From: Acidobacteriota bacterium
GTDB lineage: Bacteria; Acidobacteriota; Thermoanaerobaculia; Gp7-AA8
DNA: 64,000 bases
Assembly: GCA_003223645.1 (NCBI GenBank)
Contig: QHVT01000004.1
Coordinates: 123,334-187,333, forward strand
Direction: 5' to 3'
The notes below the pieces were generated by a model. That model saw only the letters and a program-made list of their open reading frames with translations, searched no databases and was not told where the DNA came from. Both the position numbers and the translations under genes were made by a program. How positions within the stretch are numbered: the first letter of the stretch is position 1; every line of letters begins with the position of its first letter. Of this stretch, positions 3,190-57,033 are shown piece by piece.

Positions 3190-4734
3190 ATGGCGAAGAA
3201 AATCCTCTTGGCTGATGACAGTATCACCATTCAAAAGGTCGTCGAACTGACGTTCTCGGACGCCGACTACGAAGTCACGGCGGTGAACAACGGCGCGAAA
3301 GCGATCGCGAAGCTCGCCGAGATGCGGCCGGACATCATCCTCTCCGACATCATCATGCCGGAGAAGAACGGCTACGAAGTCTGCGAGTACGTGAAGTCGC
3401 ATCCCGACTACCGCAACATTCCGGTAGTGCTGTTGACCGGCACGTTCGAGCCGTTCGATCCCGATCGCGCGGAAAAAGCCGGCTGCGACGCGGTCGTCAC
3501 GAAGCCGTTCGAGTCGCAGAGTCTCATCCAGAAAGTAGAAGAGCTGATCTCGCAGGCGATCACCGCACCGACTCCCGCACACGCGCCGGAGCCCGAACCG
3601 GAACCAGAGCCTGAGCCCGAGCCTGCGCCGCAGGCGTTGTGGACTGCGGACACCGAGGTGGTGCCGCTGCCGACGCACTCGCCGTTCTCGACGGAGAGCG
3701 GCTCGTATCCGACGCCGCAGGAGTTCCGCCACGAACCGGACATCTTCGGCGCCGCGCCCGCACCGGCCGGAACGACGGAGATGCCGTTCGAAACGCCCGA
3801 CGCCGACGCGTTCAGCGGAGAGACGCGCGCGTTCACGAAGATGAACTTCGACGAGATGCAGCAGATGGCGTCTGCCGCGCAACCCGCGCCGGAACCGGAG
3901 CCTCCACCCGCGCCGGAACCGTCGCCGTGGGATGAATCGCCGAGCGATGCCTTCGGCGGAGAGACGCGCGCATTTCCGAAGATGACGTTCGACGAGATGC
4001 TCGCCGCGGAATCCGCGTCGGCGACGCAGGCCGTGGAACCGGTCGCGCCGCCGCCGGAGCCGGAGCTCGAGAGCGAGTCGCCGTTCGGCGCGCCGCCACC
4101 CGCGGAAGAGTTCAGCGGCGAGACGCGCGCATTCACGAAGATGAGCTTCGACGAAATGCAGCAGCTCGCGTCCGGGCAAGCCGCGCCGGAACCGGAGCCG
4201 GAGCCTGTCGCGCCGCCTCCCGCACCCGAGCCTTCGCCGTGGGATGAACCGCCGAGCGAGGCCTTTGGCGGAGAAACGCGCGCGTTCCCGAAGATGACGT
4301 TCGACGAGATGATGGCCGCGACGCCGGCGGAGCCGGAGACGTTGCCGTGGGAAGCGCCGGCAGCGGAAGCCGAAGAAGAAGCGCCCGCGCCGAGTTACGC
4401 GGCCGAAGAAGCGACGCCGTTCGCCGCCGCCGCGGAGGAACCGTACGAAGTGCCGCAGCCGGAGGCGGAGCCGGCGTGGGCACCCGCGGCGGAAGCGGAA
4501 GCAGTTGCCGAAGCGGAAGAGCCGCCGATGCCATCGCCCGTGCTCGCGCCGGAGACGCCGAGCATTCCGATCGCGGCGCACGACCTCACCGACGAACAGA
4601 TCGAGCGGATCGCACAGCGCGTGGTCGAGTTGATGTCCGACCGCGTGGTGCGCAACATCGCGTGGGAAGTGATCCCCGATCTCGCGGAGATGGTGGTGAA
4701 GGAGCGCATTCGCCAGCTGGAGTCGGAAGCGTAA
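3190..4734 (+). CDS. Response regulator with acidic proline-rich linker and repeated GETRAF motifs
   Basis: Residues 1-125 form a receiver domain: acidic pair Asp9-Asp10, phospho-acceptor Asp53 (ILSDIIMP), Thr in LLTGTF and Lys in VTKPF. A long linker of Pro, Glu and Ala follows. It carries four copies of an approximately 14-residue motif, GETRAF(T/P)KM(N/T/S)FDEM, spaced 60-70 residues apart. The last 50 residues (LTDEQIERIAQRVVEL to the end) form a predicted helical domain found at the C-terminus of similar response regulators. There is no DNA-binding output domain, so a protein-interaction role is likely, perhaps in motility or polarity. ATG 3190 is preceded by GGAGAG. The family is known mostly from Acidobacteriota and deltaproteobacteria; partners cannot be named. 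Confidence 0.85.
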   Translation: MAKKILLADDSITIQKVVELTFSDADYEVTAVNNGAKAIAKLAEMRPDIILSDIIMPEKNGYEVCEYVKSHPDYRNIPVVLLTGTFEPFDPDRAEKAGCDAVVTKPFESQSLIQKVEELISQAITAPTPAHAPEPEPEPEPEPEPAPQALWTADTEVVPLPTHSPFSTESGSYPTPQEFRHEPDIFGAAPAPAGTTEMPFETPDADAFSGETRAFTKMNFDEMQQMASAAQPAPEPEPPPAPEPSPWDESPSDAFGGETRAFPKMTFDEMLAAESASATQAVEPVAPPPEPELESESPFGAPPPAEEFSGETRAFTKMSFDEMQQLASGQAAPEPEPEPVAPPPAPEPSPWDEPPSEAFGGETRAFPKMTFDEMMAATPAEPETLPWEAPAAEAEEEAPAPSYAAEEATPFAAAAEEPYEVPQPEAEPAWAPAAEAEAVAEAEEPPMPSPVLAPETPSIPIAAHDLTDEQIERIAQRVVELMSDRVVRNIAWEVIPDLAEMVVKERIRQLESEA

Positions 4735-6820: not shown

Positions 6821-8115
6821 TTCACGACGAACCGCATCCGCTCGCCCGGCGCCAGCTGGGCGAGCTTCCACCGCTCGTCCGACAACACCGTCAGCACCTG
6901 CAGATAGCCGCCCGTGACGGGATGATCGGGACCCATCGCGACGAGACTGCCGTCCGGATGAAGCTGCACGGTTCCGCACTGCATGCCGAATGACTTGAGG
7001 TCCGCGGGGATCTTCACGTCGATCGGACGCATTGGCCGGAGACGAATGCCGACGCGATCGATCGACGGCGTGACTTCGCAATCGATCGTGCCGATCTCGA
7101 CGTCGTGCGGCCCGCGCATCGCGCGAATCACGCGATGGTCTTCGCGCGCGAACTCCGTGACGACGCCTTTGCGATTTCCCACCGCGAGATAACCGCGCAG
7201 CCCGTCCGTCACCCGTCCAAACGCGATCTCGTCTCCCGCGCGCACGCCTCGCACTTGATTGCACCACGCAACGACGCAGTCGCGGCGAAAGCGCAACCGC
7301 GGCCCCGACATCGCGCACTCGAGGAGCGGCGCATCGGACGGATTGCCGACCGCGCGATTCGCGAGCGCCGCCGCGGCGTCATCGAACGGCCCGCCGGGCG
7401 CGACGCCGCGATCGATGCGGCTCCAGTCCGGCGCGCCGACCAGCGTCGCCAGCGGAGCGGAGAGAACGTCCGCGTAGTCGAGCTGCAGCGGCGCCTTCTT
7501 CGGCGCCGGCGCGACGTGCACTTCGTCGACCGGCTCGATCACGATCTCATCGCCCGGCGCGATCGCATGCTCGACATTCGCGTCCGTCAGGCCGAGGAGA
7601 TTCCAACCGCCGGGAGTGTCGATCGGATAGAAGCCGGCAACCGAGCCCGCGATCGCAAACGACCCGCGCGCAACAGGACGCGACGTGGAACGGCGCGGCA
7701 TCGCCCACTCCGCAGGCCAGCCATCGAGGTAGGCGAAGCCGCCGCGGAAGCCGAGGTAGCGAGCCGTGAGCGTGATGCCGCGAACGCGCGAGAGAAATTG
7801 CTCGCGCGTTTGGTTGGTGCGGGCGAGAAACTCGTCTAAATCCGCGCCGGCGAATGCAACAGGCATTGTGGAGCGGCGGCCGCCCTCGGCCGCCGGATTC
7901 TCGCGAGAAATCGGCGGCCGAAGCGGCCGCCGCTCCACTAGTGTCTCGAAATTGGGCGTGCCCGCCCAAATCACATAAAGCGATGAATGCCCCGGAATGC
8001 ACGCCACCACACCCGGCGCTGCGCGAGCGCTCGCTGCGAACGCGTGCAACTCGGAAGCGGAAACGTCGCCGAGCTCGACCAACACCGCGCGGTCGCCCGC
8101 TGGAGCGAGATGCAT
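6793..8115 (-). CDS. pxpBC: Fused 5-oxoprolinase subunit B and C (PxpB-PxpC / KipI-KipA), with in-frame palindromic insertion
   Basis: Fusion of the two allophanate-hydrolase-like subunits that, with PxpA, cleave 5-oxoproline to glutamate using ATP. The PxpB part (about residues 1-215) starts GDRAVLVELGD and has RVRGITLTARYLGFRGGFAYL and GFYPIDTPGGWNLLG. The PxpC part (about 230-440) has SRIDRGVAPGGPFDDAAAALANR and GMQCGTVQLHPDGSLV. Residues 60-83 (VERRP...GRRST) are encoded by a family 2 palindrome at 7868-7938, inserted in frame between the N-terminal and main PxpB lobes. The last residues (GLIGS) come from another repeat. No pxpA is visible, so either it lies elsewhere or the protein has another amidolyase role. 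ATG 8115 begins a good PxpB N-terminus. Confidence 0.87.
   Translation of the reverse strand: MHLAPAGDRAVLVELGDVSASELHAFAASARAAPGVVACIPGHSSLYVIWAGTPNFETLVERRPLRPPISRENPAAEGGRRSTMPVAFAGADLDEFLARTNQTREQFLSRVRGITLTARYLGFRGGFAYLDGWPAEWAMPRRSTSRPVARGSFAIAGSVAGFYPIDTPGGWNLLGLTDANVEHAIAPGDEIVIEPVDEVHVAPAPKKAPLQLDYADVLSAPLATLVGAPDWSRIDRGVAPGGPFDDAAAALANRAVGNPSDAPLLECAMSGPRLRFRRDCVVAWCNQVRGVRAGDEIAFGRVTDGLRGYLAVGNRKGVVTEFAREDHRVIRAMRGPHDVEIGTIDCEVTPSIDRVGIRLRPMRPIDVKIPADLKSFGMQCGTVQLHPDGSLVAMGPDHPVTGGYLQVLTVLSDERWKLAQLAPGERMRFVVNQAHGLIGS
7868..7938. repeat. Palindromic element, family 2 (GTGGAGCGGCGGCCGC), inside pxpBC
   Basis: A 71-bp inverted repeat with ends GTGGAGCGGCGGCCGC and GCGGCCGCCGCTCCAC and a central TCGCGAGA palindrome. 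Other copies are at 37390-37460, 46418-46489 and 47589-47659. Here it lies within a coding sequence and is read through in frame. Confidence 0.95.
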
Positions 8116-10788: not shown

Positions 10789-12017
10789 CGCTTCGATTGT
10801 GTCACGTGCAGAGCGGCGGCGATGAGGAAGAGCGCCGGCGCAACGAAGTGCGACAACAGGCGCGTCGCCGTCACGCGCACCAGTTCCGCGATCGTCCAAT
10901 CCGTGACGACGTACGCGAGCGTGTACAGCGTCAGCATCGGAAGAATCGCGACGAGGCCGAAGACGAGCGGCCGCCATGCGCGTTTCACCACGAGCACCGC
11001 GATCGCAACCGCGACCGCAATCCACAGAAACCCGAACCTCGGCAGGAATTCGCGCAGCACTTCACCGATGCGTCCGATGTGTTGCGGCAGGCCGGGAAGT
11101 TGCCCGAGAAAATCCTGCTCGTCCGTCGGCGCGATGCGTGCGCGCCACGCGAACTGCGCGGCGATCGCGATCGCCAACGGAATCGCGGCAGCGATGATGC
11201 GGCGTCGGAAGACGAAGACGCCTGCAGCCAGGAACACGAGCGCGAACGGCACCCCTTCGTTTTTCGTCAGCACCAGACATGCGAGCCAGAGACCGAGGCG
11301 GAGCGGCGCGCGGGCTTCGATCAGTTCGAAGAATGCGCAGCCTACGAACGCGGCGAGCGGAACATCCGCGCCTGCCGAGCGCGCACCGCCGCCCGCGGTC
11401 TCGATCTGCGGGATCCAAAGCAGCAGCGTCGCCAGCCAGACGGCGGTCGACGGCGAGAACCATTCCGCGAAACGGCGGCGGACTTCGAACGCCAGCGCGA
11501 TCGCGAACATCGCGAAGAGCGCGCGTGCGTGGCGATCGTCGCCGTCGCGCGCGAACATCATCACGGTCGCGGCGTCGAGCGGCGCGAGCAGCGGATATTG
11601 ATTGCGCGGACTGTGCGTCGACTGCAGCTGAAAGAACGGCCCGTCGATCCGCTGCTCGTGCGCGATGGCTTTCGCTTTGAGCATCCAGAACGCGCGTCCG
11701 TCGTAGTCGTTCAGCGGCGTGATGACGGCACCGATGAGCAGGACGAACGCGGTGATCCAGAGCGGAAGTGCCGAGCGAACTTCAGAGGCGCGCGGGACGC
11801 GCGCACCACTCGACGGCGTCATCGCCATCACCGCGATCGCCGAGAGTCCGAGAACCGCGATCACCGGCTTGAGCGGAATGTGCAGTACGCCGGCGACGAA
11901 GAGCGCGAGCGCGTTCGCGCCCGCGCCGGCAAGGAACCACGACGTACGCCCCGCGAGGCGCGAGAACGCGGCGCCGAGGAGCGGGAACCAGAGCAGCGCG
12001 ATCACGAGGCCGGTCAT
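10749..12017 (-). CDS. Polytopic membrane protein, GT-C glycosyltransferase-like
   Basis: A 422-residue protein with around ten predicted TM helices (starting GLVIALLWFPLLGAAFSRL). A periplasmic loop carries LNDYDGRAFWMLKAKAI and SPRNQYPLLAPLDAA. The D-x-x-x-x-W-x-x-K-A arrangement and the Tyr-Pro-Leu segment resemble the first extracytoplasmic loop of GT39/GT83-type glycosyltransferases. It overlaps the preceding small gene by 4 nt (ATGA at 12014-12017) and the following PIG-V-like gene by 40 nt. It probably works with that neighbour in building a surface glycan or glycolipid. Confidence 0.68.
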   Translation of the reverse strand: MTGLVIALLWFPLLGAAFSRLAGRTSWFLAGAGANALALFVAGVLHIPLKPVIAVLGLSAIAVMAMTPSSGARVPRASEVRSALPLWITAFVLLIGAVITPLNDYDGRAFWMLKAKAIAHEQRIDGPFFQLQSTHSPRNQYPLLAPLDAATVMMFARDGDDRHARALFAMFAIALAFEVRRRFAEWFSPSTAVWLATLLLWIPQIETAGGGARSAGADVPLAAFVGCAFFELIEARAPLRLGLWLACLVLTKNEGVPFALVFLAAGVFVFRRRIIAAAIPLAIAIAAQFAWRARIAPTDEQDFLGQLPGLPQHIGRIGEVLREFLPRFGFLWIAVAVAIAVLVVKRAWRPLVFGLVAILPMLTLYTLAYVVTDWTIAELVRVTATRLLSHFVAPALFLIAAALHVTQSKRWGEISEPSPARS

Positions 12018-12427
12018 CGCGAGATCACTCGCATGTCACTGCCGTCGACCAGCACGATGACGCCGGTTCGCGTCATGGTGTGGGGCAGGCTTTCCAGCCT
12101 GCCGCCCGGGGGACAGGTTGGAAAACCTGCCCCACACCGAGAAGGCTCAGTGAAGTGCGTCGCGCGAGGATAGAGGTAGTAGTTGAGAAAAATGCCGCGA
12201 TCGATGTCGCGCGGCCGCCGCAGCACGATCGTCACGGAGGCATCGCGCGGAATCTCGCTCGCGAGGCGTTGCATGACGACGTAGTCGCCGCCGAGAACGC
12301 GCTCGCGCCGCTCTTCGTATCGCAGCGGCAGCAGCGCCAGCGAATCGCGCACGAGCTGCACGTATTCATGTCCGCTGAACCAGATCGCGCAGGCAAACAG
12401 AACGGCCAGCGCGGGTCGTCGCATCAT
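12014..12427 (-). CDS. Hypothetical N-terminally anchored protein with in-frame palindromic insertion
   Basis: A 137-residue protein with one N-terminal hydrophobic helix (PALAVLFACAIWFSGH), then a soluble part (YVVMQRLASEIPRDASVTIVL, IFLNYYLYPRATHF, VIVLVDGSDMRVISR) predicted to be extracytoplasmic. Residues about 97-117 (RCGAGFPTCPPGG...) are encoded by a family 3 palindrome and interrupt what looks like a continuous alpha/beta domain. Its start overlaps the panC stop and its stop overlaps the next membrane protein start, each by 4 nt. It is probably an accessory protein of the two membrane glycosyltransferases. No family recognised. Confidence 0.65.
   Translation of the reverse strand: MMRRPALAVLFACAIWFSGHEYVQLVRDSLALLPLRYEERRERVLGGDYVVMQRLASEIPRDASVTIVLRRPRDIDRGIFLNYYLYPRATHFTEPSRCGAGFPTCPPGGRLESLPHTMTRTGVIVLVDGSDMRVISR
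12077..12138. repeat. Palindromic element, family 3 (GGTGTGGGGCAGGC), inside a coding sequence
   Basis: A 62-bp inverted repeat: GGTGTGGGGCAGG / CCTGCCCCACACC outer arms and inner GGCTTTCCAGCC. Relatives are at 26643-26706 and 50354-50450. It is read through in frame by the 12014-12427 gene. Confidence 0.93.
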
Positions 12428-13308
12428 CTCGGGATGCGGATGTTATCAATCAGTCGCGTGCGTCCGATTTTTACCGCGCCCGCGACGAGCACCTCGCGAT
12501 CGAAATCGCGCGGCGCTTCGAACGTGAGCGGATCGACGACCGCGAGGTAGTCGACTTCGACGCCGCCTTCTTCCGCGACGACGCGATGCATCAGCTTCTC
12601 GATCCCTGCGACCTCGCGAATGCCGTGCGTGATCGCTTCTTCGCCCGCGCGCAGCGCGCGATGGAGCACCGGCGCCTTCGCGCGCTCGTCGGCCGACAGG
12701 TAACTGTTGCGCGACGACATCGCCAGCCCGTCATGCTCGCGCATGGTCTCGCCGAAAACGAGACGCAGCGGGATGTCGAGATCGCGCGTCATCCGCTCAA
12801 TCACCGCGCACTGCTGCGCGTCCTTGCGGCCGAACACCGCGACGTCGGGCTGCACGATGTTGAACAGCTTCGCCACCACCGTCGCGACACCTTCGAAGTG
12901 TCCCGGACGTCGCGCGCCTTCCAGCGGACGCGCGACCGCGCCCGCGTCGATGCGCGTCGTCGCGCCGGGCGGATACATCACGTCGACCTCCGGCAGGAAC
13001 AGCAGGTCGACGTTTTCGGACTCGAGCAGCGCGCGATCGCGCTCCTCATCGCGCGGATAGCGCGAGAAGTCTTCGGTCGGTCCGAACTGCGTCGGGTTCA
13101 CGAAGATCGACACGATGATGAACATGTGGGTGCCGCTGCCCTCAGCGGCACCGCGACCGCTGAGGGCAGCGGTCGCCACATTTCGGACCAGCGAGAGATG
13201 TCCTTCGTGCAGAAAGCCCATTGTCGGCACGAAGCCGATCACCGCACCGTGCGCTCTTGCATTCGCGACTGCTGCGCGAACTTCTTCGATCGTCCGCGCG
13301 ATCTTCAT
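12424..13308 (-). CDS. panC: Pantothenate synthetase with in-frame palindromic insertion
   Basis: Joins pantoate and beta-alanine with ATP to give pantothenate. The nucleotidyltransferase HxGH motif is in TMGFLHEGHLSLVRN (about residues 29-43). SIFVNPTQFGPTEDFSRYPR follows, then RPGHFEGVATVVAKLFNIV, FGRKDAQQ and the KMSKS-like MSSRNSYLS. The 294 residues are slightly longer than usual because residues about 43-62 (ATAALSGRGAAEGSGTH) are encoded by a palindrome at 13124-13181, placed between the HxGH helix and the strand leading to SIFVNP. It overlaps panB by 4 nt upstream and the small gene by 4 nt downstream. Confidence 0.96.
   Translation of the reverse strand: MKIARTIEEVRAAVANARAHGAVIGFVPTMGFLHEGHLSLVRNVATAALSGRGAAEGSGTHMFIIVSIFVNPTQFGPTEDFSRYPRDEERDRALLESENVDLLFLPEVDVMYPPGATTRIDAGAVARPLEGARRPGHFEGVATVVAKLFNIVQPDVAVFGRKDAQQCAVIERMTRDLDIPLRLVFGETMREHDGLAMSSRNSYLSADERAKAPVLHRALRAGEEAITHGIREVAGIEKLMHRVVAEEGGVEVDYLAVVDPLTFEAPRDFDREVLVAGAVKIGRTRLIDNIRIPR
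13124..13181. repeat. Palindromic element, family 4 (ATGTGGGTGCCGCTGCCCTC), inside panC
   Basis: A 58-bp inverted repeat with near-perfect arms: CCGCTGCCCTCAGCGG on the left, CCGCTGAGGGCAGCGG on the right, and outer ATGTGG/CCACAT. It is read in frame as about 20 extra residues near the panC active site. Only one copy is seen in the window. Confidence 0.93.
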
Positions 13309-14192
13309 CGCGGGAACGCGACGACGCCGCCGTCATCGCGCGTGGCGTAGAGCCGCTTCAGCTCTTCGTCGCTGGCCATGTGGAACGACTCCTTCTCTTC
13401 GTCGGGGAAGCTGCCGTCGCGGACGTCGTGGAGATACGACTCCAGCGCCTTCTGCATGTCCTGCGCGATGTGCGCGTACTGCCGCACGAACTTCGCGGTG
13501 TGGCCGTCGTAGATGCCGAGGACGTCGTGGAAGACGAGGACCTGCCCGTCGCAGTGCGGACCGGCGCCGATGCCGATCGTCGGAATCGTGATCTGTTCGG
13601 TGATGATCGCCGCGAGCTCGGTCGGCACGCATTCGAGGACGAGCGAGAAACATCCGACGCGCTCCAGCGCGACCGCTTCGTCGATCAATCGCTTCGCGTC
13701 GTCCGCATTTTTCCCTTGCAGCTTGAATCCGCCGAGCGCGTTCACCGACTGCGGCGTGAGGCCGATGTGTCCCATCACCGGGATCTCGGCGTCGAGGATC
13801 GCCTCGATCGTGCGGAGGCGGCTCGCCTTCGCGCCTTCGACTTTCACCGCCTGCGCGCCCGACTGAATGAACCGCCCCGCGTTGCGCACCGACTCTTCGA
13901 TCGACACGTGATACGAGAGGTACGGCATGTCGCCGACGAGGAGCGCCGACTTCGCGCCGCGCGCCGCCGCGCGCGTGTGATGCAGCATGTCGTCGACGGT
14001 CACGCTGAGCGTGTCGGGATAGCCGAGAACGACCATGCCGAGGGAATCGCCGACGAGGACGATGTCGGAGCCGGCGTCATCGGCGACCTTCGCGCTCGGA
14101 TAGTCGTACGCGGTGAGCATGCCGATGCGCGACTTCCCCTTCATCGCGCGAACCGCGGGAACGGTGACTTTTTTCCGTGGCTGACTATTCAT
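13305..14192 (-). CDS. panB: 3-methyl-2-oxobutanoate hydroxymethyltransferase
   Basis: Ketopantoate synthesis from alpha-ketoisovalerate and methylenetetrahydrofolate, the first step of pantothenate synthesis. The 295-residue (beta/alpha)8 protein has KGKSRIGMLTAYDYPSA, VLVGDSLGMVVLGY (Mg-binding Asp), GDMPYLSYH, VKVEGA, MGHIGLTPQS and the C-terminal CDGQVLVFHDVLGI. Start ATG at 14192. Four-nt overlap with panC gives a panBC coupled pair that continues into three membrane or exported genes. Confidence 0.97.
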   Translation of the reverse strand: MNSQPRKKVTVPAVRAMKGKSRIGMLTAYDYPSAKVADDAGSDIVLVGDSLGMVVLGYPDTLSVTVDDMLHHTRAAARGAKSALLVGDMPYLSYHVSIEESVRNAGRFIQSGAQAVKVEGAKASRLRTIEAILDAEIPVMGHIGLTPQSVNALGGFKLQGKNADDAKRLIDEAVALERVGCFSLVLECVPTELAAIITEQITIPTIGIGAGPHCDGQVLVFHDVLGIYDGHTAKFVRQYAHIAQDMQKALESYLHDVRDGSFPDEEKESFHMASDEELKRLYATRDDGGVVAFPR

Positions 14193-14981: not shown

Positions 14982-15079
14982 ATGAAGGCAGAAGGCAGAA
15001 GGCAGAAAGCAGAAGTGAGAAAGGCAGCGCGACTCGCCACTTCTTACTTCTGCCTTCTGCCCTCTGCCTTCTGCCTTCA
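14982..15079. repeat. Tandem-arm inverted repeat, GCAGAAG type
   Basis: Begins ATGAAGGC, with arms of 7-bp GCAGAAG/GCAGAAA units and their complement, ending at GCCTTCA. It lies between divergent genes (deoxynucleoside kinase and M16 peptidase), so it sits where promoters should be and cannot be only a terminator. Confidence 0.93.
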
Positions 15080-15107
15080 CCGGTTCGTGATAAAACTCGC
15101 GCCCCAC

Positions 15108-16361
15108 ATGCTGTCCCTTGAGCAATACACGTTAGATAACGGGCTGAAGGTCGTCCTCAACGAGGACCATTCCGCCCCTCTCGTCGCGATCAATCTCTGG
15201 TACCACGTCGGCTCGAAGAATGAGCGGCCCGGCCGCACGGGGTTCGCGCATCTCTTCGAGCACATGCTGTTCTCCGGCTCGGAGCACGTCGGCAACAACG
15301 AGCATTTCCGCTACGTGCAGTCGGTCGGCGGTGTGCTCAACGGCACGACGTTCTTCGATCGCACGAATTACTTCGAGACGCTTCCCTCCAACTATCTCGC
15401 CCTCGGCCTCTGGCTCGAGTCCGACCGGATGGGCTTTTTTCTCCCCGCGCTGACGCAGGAGAAGCTCGACATCCAGCGGGAAGTCGTGAAGGAGGAGCGG
15501 CGCCAGCGCTACGACAACGTGCCGTACGGCACGGCGTTCGAGCGTTTACTGCGTCTCGGCTATCCGCCCGACTACTCGTATCACTGGCCGACGATCGGCT
15601 CGATGGAAGACCTCGGCGCCGCATCGCTCGACGACATCCGCGCGTTCTTCAGCACCTGGTATCGCCCCGACAACTGCACGCTGACGATCGTCGGCGACTT
15701 CTCGACGTCCGAGGCGAGGACGCTCGTCGAACAATACTTCGGCGACATCGAGCCGGGACGCTCGTTCCCGCCGTTCGATCTCCAGCGCACGCCCGCGTCC
15801 CACGAAGTGCGCGAGACGTTCGCGTCGCCCATCCAGCTGCCGCGCATCTATCGCCTCTATCACCTGCCGAAGATGGGCGAGGCGGAGTGGGTGCACGCGG
15901 ACTTGCTGACGACGATCGTCGCGTCGGACAAAGCGAGCCGTCTCGATCGCGCGCTCGTGCACGAACAGCAAATCGCGCAGGACGTGGCGATGTACGTGCT
16001 GCCGACCGAGTCGACCGGGATCGTGATGCTGCAGGCGACGGCGCGCGAAGGCGTGCAGATCGACGAGATCGAAGCAGCCATCGACGCCGAAGTCGCGCGC
16101 ATCGCGCTCGACGGCGTCACCGAAGACGAGCTCACGCGCGCGAAGAACCGCGCGGAGATCGAGTTTGCGCATCAGATCGAAACATTCGACGCGCGCGCGG
16201 ACCTGATTGGAATGATGTCGACGTACTTCGGCGATCCGACGATGGTCGATCGCTGGCTCGATCCGTATCGCGCCGCGTCCGCGGACAACCTCGCGCACAT
16301 CGCCAGGAAGTACCTGATTCCCGAGAATCGAGTGACTAGCCTGTTTGTACCGGAGATATGA
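15108..16361 (+). CDS. M16 zinc peptidase, catalytic subunit
   Basis: A 417-residue insulinase/pitrilysin-family (M16B-like) peptidase. The inverted zinc motif HLFEHM (HxxEH) is at about residues 48-52, within GRTGFAHLFEHMLFSGSEH. The downstream zinc Glu lies in the region VVKEERRQRYDN. The second half-domain (PRIYRLYHLPKMGEAEW, ADLLTTIVASDKASRL) is complete. No signal peptide follows ATG 15108. The next gene encodes the non-catalytic partner, so the pair probably forms a heterodimer, as in mitochondrial processing peptidase and Sphingomonas A1 enzymes. Confidence 0.93.
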   Translation: MLSLEQYTLDNGLKVVLNEDHSAPLVAINLWYHVGSKNERPGRTGFAHLFEHMLFSGSEHVGNNEHFRYVQSVGGVLNGTTFFDRTNYFETLPSNYLALGLWLESDRMGFFLPALTQEKLDIQREVVKEERRQRYDNVPYGTAFERLLRLGYPPDYSYHWPTIGSMEDLGAASLDDIRAFFSTWYRPDNCTLTIVGDFSTSEARTLVEQYFGDIEPGRSFPPFDLQRTPASHEVRETFASPIQLPRIYRLYHLPKMGEAEWVHADLLTTIVASDKASRLDRALVHEQQIAQDVAMYVLPTESTGIVMLQATAREGVQIDEIEAAIDAEVARIALDGVTEDELTRAKNRAEIEFAHQIETFDARADLIGMMSTYFGDPTMVDRWLDPYRAASADNLAHIARKYLIPENRVTSLFVPEI

Positions 16362-16446
16362 AGGCAGAAGGCAGAAGGCAGAAAGCAGAAGGAAGAAGTG
16401 ATTCGTTTCTCACTTCTGCTTTCTGCCTTCTGCCTTCTGCCTTCAT
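16358..16446. repeat. Tandem-arm inverted repeat, GCAGAAG type
   Basis: Perfect terminal octamers ATGAAGGC and GCCTTCAT enclose arms of GCAGAAG/GCAGAAA units. Its first four bases contain the TGA stop of the upstream peptidase gene. It separates the two M16 subunit genes. Confidence 0.95.
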
Positions 16447-17831: not shown

Positions 17832-17892
17832 CCGAGGAGAGCGGGCATCCTGCCTGCCTCCGGGGGGCGGGCGGGACGCCCGCTCTCCTCGG
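17832..17892. repeat. Palindromic element, family 1 (GAGAGCGGGC type)
   Basis: A 61-bp copy with ends CCGAGGAGAGCGGGC and GCCCGCTCTCCTCGG. It exactly fills the convergent gap between the M16 partner gene (stop at 17829) and the MbtH-domain gene (stop at 17893). Confidence 0.95.
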
Positions 17893-19517: not shown

Positions 19518-19520
19518 ACG

Positions 19521-19594
19521 ATGGCGGATGGCAGATGGCAGATGGCGAGCAACACGCTTCTGCCATTCGCCATCTGCCATCTGCCATCCGCCAT
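19521..19594. repeat. Tandem-arm inverted repeat, GGCAGAT type
   Basis: Ends ATGGCGGATGG and CCATCCGCCAT. Each arm holds three or four 7-bp units GGCAGAT or ATCTGCC around the spacer AACACGCTTC. It lies between divergent mtnA and gapA, 17 nt upstream of the gapA ribosome-binding region, so it is probably transcribed in the gapA leader. Relative at 2100-2170. Confidence 0.95.
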
Positions 19595-19617
19595 CTGTTT
19601 CCAGGAGGTCTGCTGCC

Positions 19618-37389: not shown

Positions 37390-37460
37390 GTGGAGCGGCG
37401 GCCGCCCTCGGCCGCCGACCACTCGCGAGATCCCGGCGGCCGAAGCGGCCGCCGCTCCAC
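37390..37460. repeat. Palindromic element, family 2
   Basis: A 71-bp copy with central TCGCGAGA. It spans the whole convergent gap between the GT39-like gene (stop 37386) and clpB (stop 37461). Confidence 0.95.
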
Positions 37461-46403: not shown

Positions 46404-46417
46404 CGCTGGTTCATTCA

Positions 46418-46489
46418 GTGGAGCGGCGGCCGCCCTCGGCCGCCGATTTCTTGCGAGAGGCCGGCGGCCGAGGGCGGCCGCCGCTCCAC
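46418..46489. repeat. Palindromic element, family 2
   Basis: A 72-bp copy between rlmN and the 112-residue orphan gene, with central TTGCGAGA (one change from the common TCGCGAGA). It fills nearly all of the 89-bp gap. Confidence 0.95.
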
Positions 46490-46492
46490 TAG

Positions 46493-46966: not shown

Positions 46967-47817
46967 CTACTTGTTCTCGCCCGAGACCGCTCTCTTCCAC
47001 GATTCGGACCAATACGCCAGGTACTTCCACTTGCCCCACTTCCGGTAGCGGCGGAGCATCGTCGCGTCGCTGACGCGGCGGCCGCCGTGATAGCGGTTGC
47101 GGACGAAGCTGCGGAACTCCGTGTCGACGGCGATGAAGTCGTGACGGCCGTCCATCGCCAGGAGGTGGGCCGCGCCGTACGGACCGATGCCGGGCAGGGA
47201 AAGATAGAACTTGTAGCGGTCTTCGGTGCTGGCGGGAAGCGTCGAGAGGTCGCACGATGCGAGCGCGTGGATCGACTTCGCGCGATAGCCGAGGCGGCAG
47301 TCGGACTGCAGCTCGTCGACGGTGAAGCGCGCGACTTCTTCCTGCGTCGGAAAGACGCCGCCGCATTTCGCGACGAGGAGCTCGATCATGCGGACGGTCT
47401 GTCGCCAGGTCGTGTTCGTCGTGGCGATGATCTTGACCGCGTCTTCCCACAACGTCGCGCCGCAGAGGAGACGTCCGAAGCCGGCGCGCGCGACCCACGC
47501 ATGCGCGGGCGAGTCGCGCGAGAGCTCGACGAACCCGGCAATGTCGACGTCGAGCTGGAACATACGCCTGATGCGCTCGCGAAGCTCTGTGGAGCGGCGG
47601 CCGCTTCGGCCGCCGGAATCTCGCGAGAGAGCGGCGGCCGAGAGCGGCCGCCGCTCCACAAGAAGCGCACCGTCAACGCACGAAATCTCCAGCTCCCCAT
47701 CCCGCTCGCGGCGTCGCAGCACGCCTTCTTCGCGCGACCAGCGGAACGGCGCGAGCCTGTACCAGCCATGCGACTCGACGGTCGTGGCGAAGACGAAGTC
47801 GTTGGGAACGGGAAAGT

Positions 47818-56762: not shown

Positions 56763-57033
56763 TGCGTCATCTTGAGCGGAGGCACTGCGCGATGCGCATT
56801 TGTCGAGCAAAATGACAGCCCCTCACCCGGCGCTTCGCGCCACCCTCTCCCGCAAGGAGGAGAGCGGGCATCCTGCCCGCCTCCCGGGGGGCGGGCGGGA
56901 CGCCCGCTCTCCTCCTTGCGGGGGTGGCCGAAGGCCGGATGGGGGCTGTCATTAGAAGTCGCGTAGACGGCGAAAGATCTCAATCTACGTAACCTGAGAT
57001 CCTTCGCCGCGCTTCGCCGGCTCAGGATGACGT
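56763..57033. repeat. Three-layer nested palindrome
   Basis: Outer layer: GCGTCATCTTGAGCGG near 56764 against CCGGCTCAGGATGACG near 57016-57031. Middle layer: GACAGCCCCTCACCCGGC (56815) with CCACCCTCTCCCGCAAGG, against CCTTGCGGGGGTGG...CCGGATGGGGGCTGTC (to 56950). Inner layer: a family 1 copy (56862-56915). The 489-bp convergent gap between the tyrosinase-like gene and chrB holds nothing else I can recognise. Confidence 0.88.

Follow-up and report, generated by a model that had tools for sequence, protein, structure and literature searches.

The window analysed here, a stretch of 64,000 nucleotides, carries two overlapping genes on its minus strand: panB (13305..14192), encoding ketopantoate hydroxymethyltransferase and intact, lies upstream of panC (12424..13308), encoding the vitamin B5 enzyme pantoate--beta-alanine ligase, with an overlap of 4 bp. 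The frame of the 294-aa PanC is open throughout, and the protein scores 329.2 bits against Pfam PF02569 (cut-off 20.7) and 299.7 bits against NCBIfam TIGR00018 (cut-off 212.75); all 50 columns that are invariant across 40 PanCs are kept, including H34, H37, Q74, K162 and S198-R200. A repeat search of the window finds a palindrome in this gene at 13124-13181, with arms of 25 nt each (13124-13148 and 13157-13181) that are 88% complementary and separated by a gap of 8 nt. The preliminary description of this DNA had reported such a palindrome, read in frame as an Ala/Gly/Ser-rich insertion in an otherwise intact panC and panBC pair, and was right on both counts. A second intact panC, which it had named as a point that would speak against it, was looked for, and PF02569 has a single match in a profile search of the genome (6.38 Mb in 51 contigs, 96.67% complete). 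A separate palindrome at 12077-12138 (GGTGTGGGGCAGGCTTTCCAGCCTGCC...) lies within an open frame at 12014-12427 (minus strand) that has no NCBIfam match, and is possibly a member of a second family read in frame.

The panC palindrome contains an exact match to a 54-mer (13126..13179, minus strand, in orientation A with respect to panC), which covers PanC residues 44-61; on the panC strand it reads GTG GCG ... ACC CAC and translates to VATAALSGRGAAEGSGTH, 18 residues. With a flanking T and A it makes up a 56-bp unit (13125..13180) that reads T + GTGGCGACCGCTGCCCTCAGCGGTCGC + GGTGCCGCTGAGGGCAGCGGCACCCAC + A, an inverted pair of hairpins that both have GTGG as the foot and CCCT as the loop. The arm on the gene strand (13153..13179, minus) consists of the foot and the hairpin CGACCGCTG CCCT CAGCGGTCG, and the inverted arm (13126..13152, plus) of the foot and the hairpin GTGCCGCTG CCCT CAGCGGCAC. 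Judged by sequence, this is the architecture of a REP doublet (REPIN), the unit being, as in REPINs, an inverted REP pair with a spacer that is able to fold into a single hairpin. With its GTGG foot it falls outside the GTAG super-family, which is defined by an unpaired GTAG foot.

Although the preliminary description treated the palindrome as an oddity of panC, it is one of the 41 short-form copies that this genome has of a mobile REP doublet, here designated F1. The 16-bp core of F1 occurs 265 times genome-wide at up to one mismatch, versus 3 times for a reversed control pattern, and is therefore not a product of chance. The short form has a fixed length of 54 bp (GTGG...CCAC) and is present in 41 copies at up to three mismatches (control 0), 18 of them identical and 14 with one change; where pairs of exact cores were sought with spacers of 0-30, all 21 have an 8-bp spacer, equal to a 24-bp pitch and a 54-bp unit. 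With 265 cores and 41 short doublets, F1 shows the high genomic copy number of a REPIN. The 54-mer is preceded by T and followed by A in 41/41 copies, A or T predominates one step further out, and no target-site duplication was seen at the 41 short copies. There is also a long form of 87-97 bp, with a GC-rich and variable middle. In 59 relatives the core counts are 0-3, close to the control level, with 0 in the same-genus genome G001, and the unit is found in one of 148 genomes of the class, namely the source genome, being absent from G001 and 146 others; viral contigs gave 0 matches. A recent spread of the short form through a single genome is the best explanation. The nearest named PanC records come from Acidobacteria and Thermoanaerobaculia assemblies, and the host lineage is close to Thermoanaerobaculia, in the Acidobacteriota.

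The long form lies mainly between genes and the short form mainly inside them, so that the short form departs from the extragenic placement of REPINs. By a strict test, which asks for an open frame and a coding score on both sides under a simple codon model self-trained on sequence fetched from the genome, 26 of the 41 short copies are coding, all 26 in the phase that starts with GTG (phase 0), versus 1 of 20 for the long form (Fisher p = 9e-6). Control palindromes of the same genome partly pass this test (7/25 for family F2 and 2/13 for the GTCATCC family, phases mixed), and some false positives are therefore possible in it. A loose count, which adds copies near gene ends and those supported by homology, makes 37 of the 41 genic (15 in orientation A and 22 in B); it leaves out L208, L218, L229 and L234, and takes in L204 and L227, with codon scores near zero, which were classed as genic after inspection of the N-terminus. 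All but one (L207, in frame 2) of the 37 are in frame 1, which in both orientations gives an Ala/Gly/Ser/Thr-rich peptide (VATAALSGRGAAEGSGTH in A, VGAAALSGTATAEGSGRH in B); frame 2 gives a peptide containing Trp and Pro. Since a TGA closes frame 3 in the consensus, the loose phase count compares only frames 1 and 2, both of which are open in both orientations, and a division of 36 versus 1 has p = 6e-10 at equal odds. In the related genome G010, taken as a control, none of the 15 GTAG REPINs with loci looks in-frame genic; in four of the 15 the flank is cut short by the end of a contig.

Three further observations concern individual loci. One 93-bp long-form element (L252:3458-3550), missed by the long-form pattern search, is apparently in frame in a gene with coding on both sides, an exception to the intergenic rule. 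Loci L215 and L220 encode similar membrane proteins with the insert at an identical place (position 3501-3554) and in the same orientation; they look paralogous, the duplication probably having come after the insertion, so the number of independent insertions is at most 40. G010 (L322-L336) contains 65 exact GTAG REPINs, mostly of 62 bp and often located between converging genes.

The proteins that carry the short form are mutually unrelated in function and place, and they include PanC, PurL, ATP-dependent DNA ligase, phosphoglucose isomerase (PGI) and an AMP-binding enzyme. Without reliance on codon scores, 12 of 38 scanned proteins have the insert lying within one Pfam domain that scores above cut-off: PanC, OCD/mu-crystallin, VanZ, Rce1-like, DNA ligase, saccharopine dehydrogenase, FecR, SAM methyltransferase, the AMP-binding enzyme, TonB-dependent barrel, HATPase_c and phosphodiesterase; in PurL the insert is spanned by an NCBIfam equivalog model. 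Substitutions among the genic copies number 31 (9 synonymous, 22 nonsynonymous), and as the synonymous share of 29% compares with 28% expected without constraint, no purifying selection on the peptide is seen. On the simplest reading of these sequences, the insert would be tolerated filler in its host proteins.

When 34 genes were queried in G001, 16 gave orthologues or close homologues whose alignment covers the insertion, and 16/16 are without the unit. Ancestral loop lengths were judged with G001, G002, G009 and G011 (leaving out L317 and L321, further matches for L206) and are stable in five genes. The PanC loop has 26 residues in 4/4 relatives versus 38 in the insert-bearing protein, a net gain of 12; the figures are 26 residues in 4/4 relatives (net +12) for the SAM methyltransferase, 22 in 4/4 (net +16) for PGI, 22-23 (net +15 or +16) for the saccharopine-dehydrogenase-like protein and 24-25 (net +13 or +14) for the histidine kinase. 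No gene of stable length stands at +18, so the 54-bp unit there replaces about 2 to 6 native codons; none of the five shows a plain insertion of 54 or 57 bp that left the target whole. PanC gains only 12 residues because the unit took the place of about 6 native codons, and the preliminary figure of some 20 added residues has to be amended to 18 encoded and 12 gained. Since the unit's ends are complete in the 41 copies, the loss lies on the target side. In 15 pairs with G001 the net gain is below 18 in 13 and above it in two, which gain 19 and 20 at an identity of 42-44%. These pairs leave out L235, possibly a paralogous kinase, with net 14; L278, which at net 18 is a second match for L206; and L291, whose alignment stops before the insert. 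Hosts other than PanC gain 7-20 residues. The aligned sequences are compatible with replaced target codons whether the codons were lost during the insertion step or later.

An AlphaFold2 model of PanC, built on an alignment of 40 PanCs, has a pLDDT of 94.2 and is closest among solved structures to the PanC of T. maritima (2ejc, TM 0.90). The insert makes the helix that starts with the HxGH motif longer in the model; because this helix spans residues 35-51, the first eight inserted residues are absorbed by it. Residues 52-61 are predicted to be mostly loop and partly disordered (mean pLDDT 55 over the block 51-60). The loop had been placed at the ATP site in the preliminary description, which the model does not bear out, its low-confidence loop (52-61) beginning 15 residues past His37. 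A helix rises 1.5 A per residue, so the loop would lie about 20 A off, an estimate taken from the helix rise and not from model coordinates, and "next to the active site" would be truer in sequence than in space.

The source genome has one match to the Y1 transposase family (PF01797), a REP-associated tyrosine transposase (RAYT) by NF047646 (103.5 bits, cut-off 80); both F1 and a PF01797 match are lacking in G001, the one relative in the genus. The RAYT gene (L155:1301-2195) is flanked on both sides by related REPINs of family F2 (TGTGGAGCGGCG...CCACA), with one before the gene and three, about 125 bp apart, into which its 3' end runs, the first overlapping the coding frame. The F1 core is absent from this 3.3-kb locus, where the flanking family is F2 (GTGGAGCGGCG...). 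The GTGG foot is common to F1 and F2, and the CCCT loop is also found in some F2 copies. According to the part of PMC8266576 drawn on here, TnpAREP proteins cleave single strands of DNA next to a hairpin, at CT or CA, the choice being guided in at least one system by the foot tetranucleotide; we infer that the invariant CA at the F1 ends would fit a cut of this type. F1 was probably moved by a RAYT transposase. Within the window, F2, the family flanking the RAYT gene, has copies (GTGGAGCGGCGGCCGC...) at 7868-7938, 37390-37460, 46417-46490 and 47588-47660, and a third palindrome family (GGAGAGCGGGCATCCTGCCCGCC...) is present at 474-544, 17832-17892 and 56849-56922. Facing short tandem units (GGCAGAA, GGCAGAT) form palindromes at 2418-2542, 14983-15079, 16358-16446 and 19520-19595, two of them at the ends of a frame at 14982-16361.

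The reading that we consider quite probable is that F1 is a short-form REPIN, recently spread in a single genome, that persists mainly inside genes as a translated neutral loop, having been mobilised by the RAYT and swapped for target codons. The parts read directly from sequence are the 41 copies of fixed length, the one phase in both orientations, the empty orthologue sites and the net gains mostly below 18 codons. The genome's RAYT would cut at the CA adjoining the GTGG-guided hairpin and yield a single-strand intermediate, integration would put the unit in place of a few codons of the target, and the ribosome would translate it as a soft Ala/Gly/Ser/Thr loop; selection would purge copies in other phases or at places intolerant of a loop, so that PanC and some 35 other proteins would keep working with an identical neutral insert. 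Against this, survivors of random insertion followed by selection should be mostly intergenic, but no more than 4 of the 41 short copies are; the scarcity of intergenic short copies could be due either to insertion that favours genes, or to conversion or loss of intergenic copies, or to selection of the short form in genes. Also weighing against it are the RAYT gene's flanks, which belong to F2 and not to F1, and the lack of purifying selection on the peptide. It is possible, if rather doubtful, that the short form is a REPIN sub-family specialised on gene interiors, with codon-swapping integration, a single phase because both strands encode a soft linker, and the life of a near-neutral coding replicator in essential enzymes, its long sibling being intergenic.

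Other explanations have less in their favour. The panC mRNA hairpin is very stable (-62.7 kcal/mol, z -6.4 across 118 nt) and the gene-strand sequence almost self-complementary, as might be expected if the ribosome or an RNA process skipped the hairpin and gave a protein without the loop; programmed bypassing occurs in T4 gene 60 and with the mitochondrial byps. However, bypassing requires no open frame, no multiple of three and no single phase, and the F1 short form shows all three; as the unit replaces target codons, skipping would leave PanC about 6 residues shorter than its relatives, and we regard it as very unlikely. That some 36 proteins carry the same peptide in a single phase, with few short copies outside genes, could also point to a functional linker or tag selected in common by many proteins, but the missing purifying selection, the unrelatedness of the hosts and the lack of the insert in the same-genus genome make that very improbable. 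An inactivated panC, whether a pseudogene or one with a backup elsewhere, is conceivable in so far as the insert comes after the HxGH helix, where the sequence is conserved; it is most unlikely in view of the open frame and confident predicted fold, and a second panC or a pseudogene was rejected on the one PF02569 match, the kept invariant columns and a TIGR00018 score far above cut-off. That the copies are artefacts of a fragmented, repeat-bearing assembly (51 contigs) is extremely improbable, as they occupy 41 sites with differing flanks, exact ends and one phase, and 54 bp is less than the usual sequencing read length.

If the preferred reading of F1 as a tolerated, translated REPIN holds, some three dozen proteins with the same 18-residue insert, several of them central enzymes and many matched by a congener's orthologue that lacks the insert, form a natural library, in which the tolerance of loop insertions and the entry of REP doublets into DNA are directly testable. 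The distribution suggests that residence inside genes can be the rule for a REP sub-family and not a rare accident.

In-frame palindromes and REP dimers inside genes are of a kind already known. In Rickettsia and Wolbachia, palindromic repeats are described, in the parts of PMC2229807 and PMC3767692 consulted, as lying in frame in unrelated conserved genes, solvent-exposed and tolerated by the enzymes. F1 resembles these elements (RPE-1 and others, and the Wolbachia WPE) in being palindromic and in frame in conserved genes, but RPEs are rickettsial and measure about 100-150 bp, whereas F1 is a 54-bp REP doublet with GTGG feet from a lineage near Thermoanaerobaculia, in a single phase in both orientations and with target codons replaced; the two are set apart here by host and description. 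The GTAG/CGTC REP dimers, in the portion of PMC3733652 used, encode 20-30 residues when inside genes; more than one species has such genic copies, Opitutus terrae the most, with DNA ligase and repair genes among the hosts. F1 is likewise a genic REP dimer with a DNA ligase host, but those REPs are mostly intergenic, with a GTAG or CGTC foot, and neither a gene-confined sub-form nor a single phase, both seen in F1, is described for them in that portion. F1 also agrees with the REPIN/RAYT system, as far as PMC3116915 is drawn on, in being an inverted REP doublet that serves as a mobile unit in high copy, a tie to RAYT being described for REPINs; that paper describes REPINs as extragenic, its main text not using the word "intragenic", whereas the F1 short form is genic. 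The division by length has a parallel in the 107-bp and 155-bp Correia elements of Neisseria, the short form, in the same part of PMC2229807, having open frames in genes and the long form being intergenic, much as the F1 long form mostly is, although Correia elements differ in sequence and ends (TIR with TA) and in the phylum of their host. Our literature search found no account of the F1 element, nor of REPs inside genes of Acidobacteriota. Set beside these known systems, F1 stands out by its GTGG foot, and new in it are the placing of short copies in genes and of long ones mostly between them, the reading in one phase, the replaced target codons and the host lineage.
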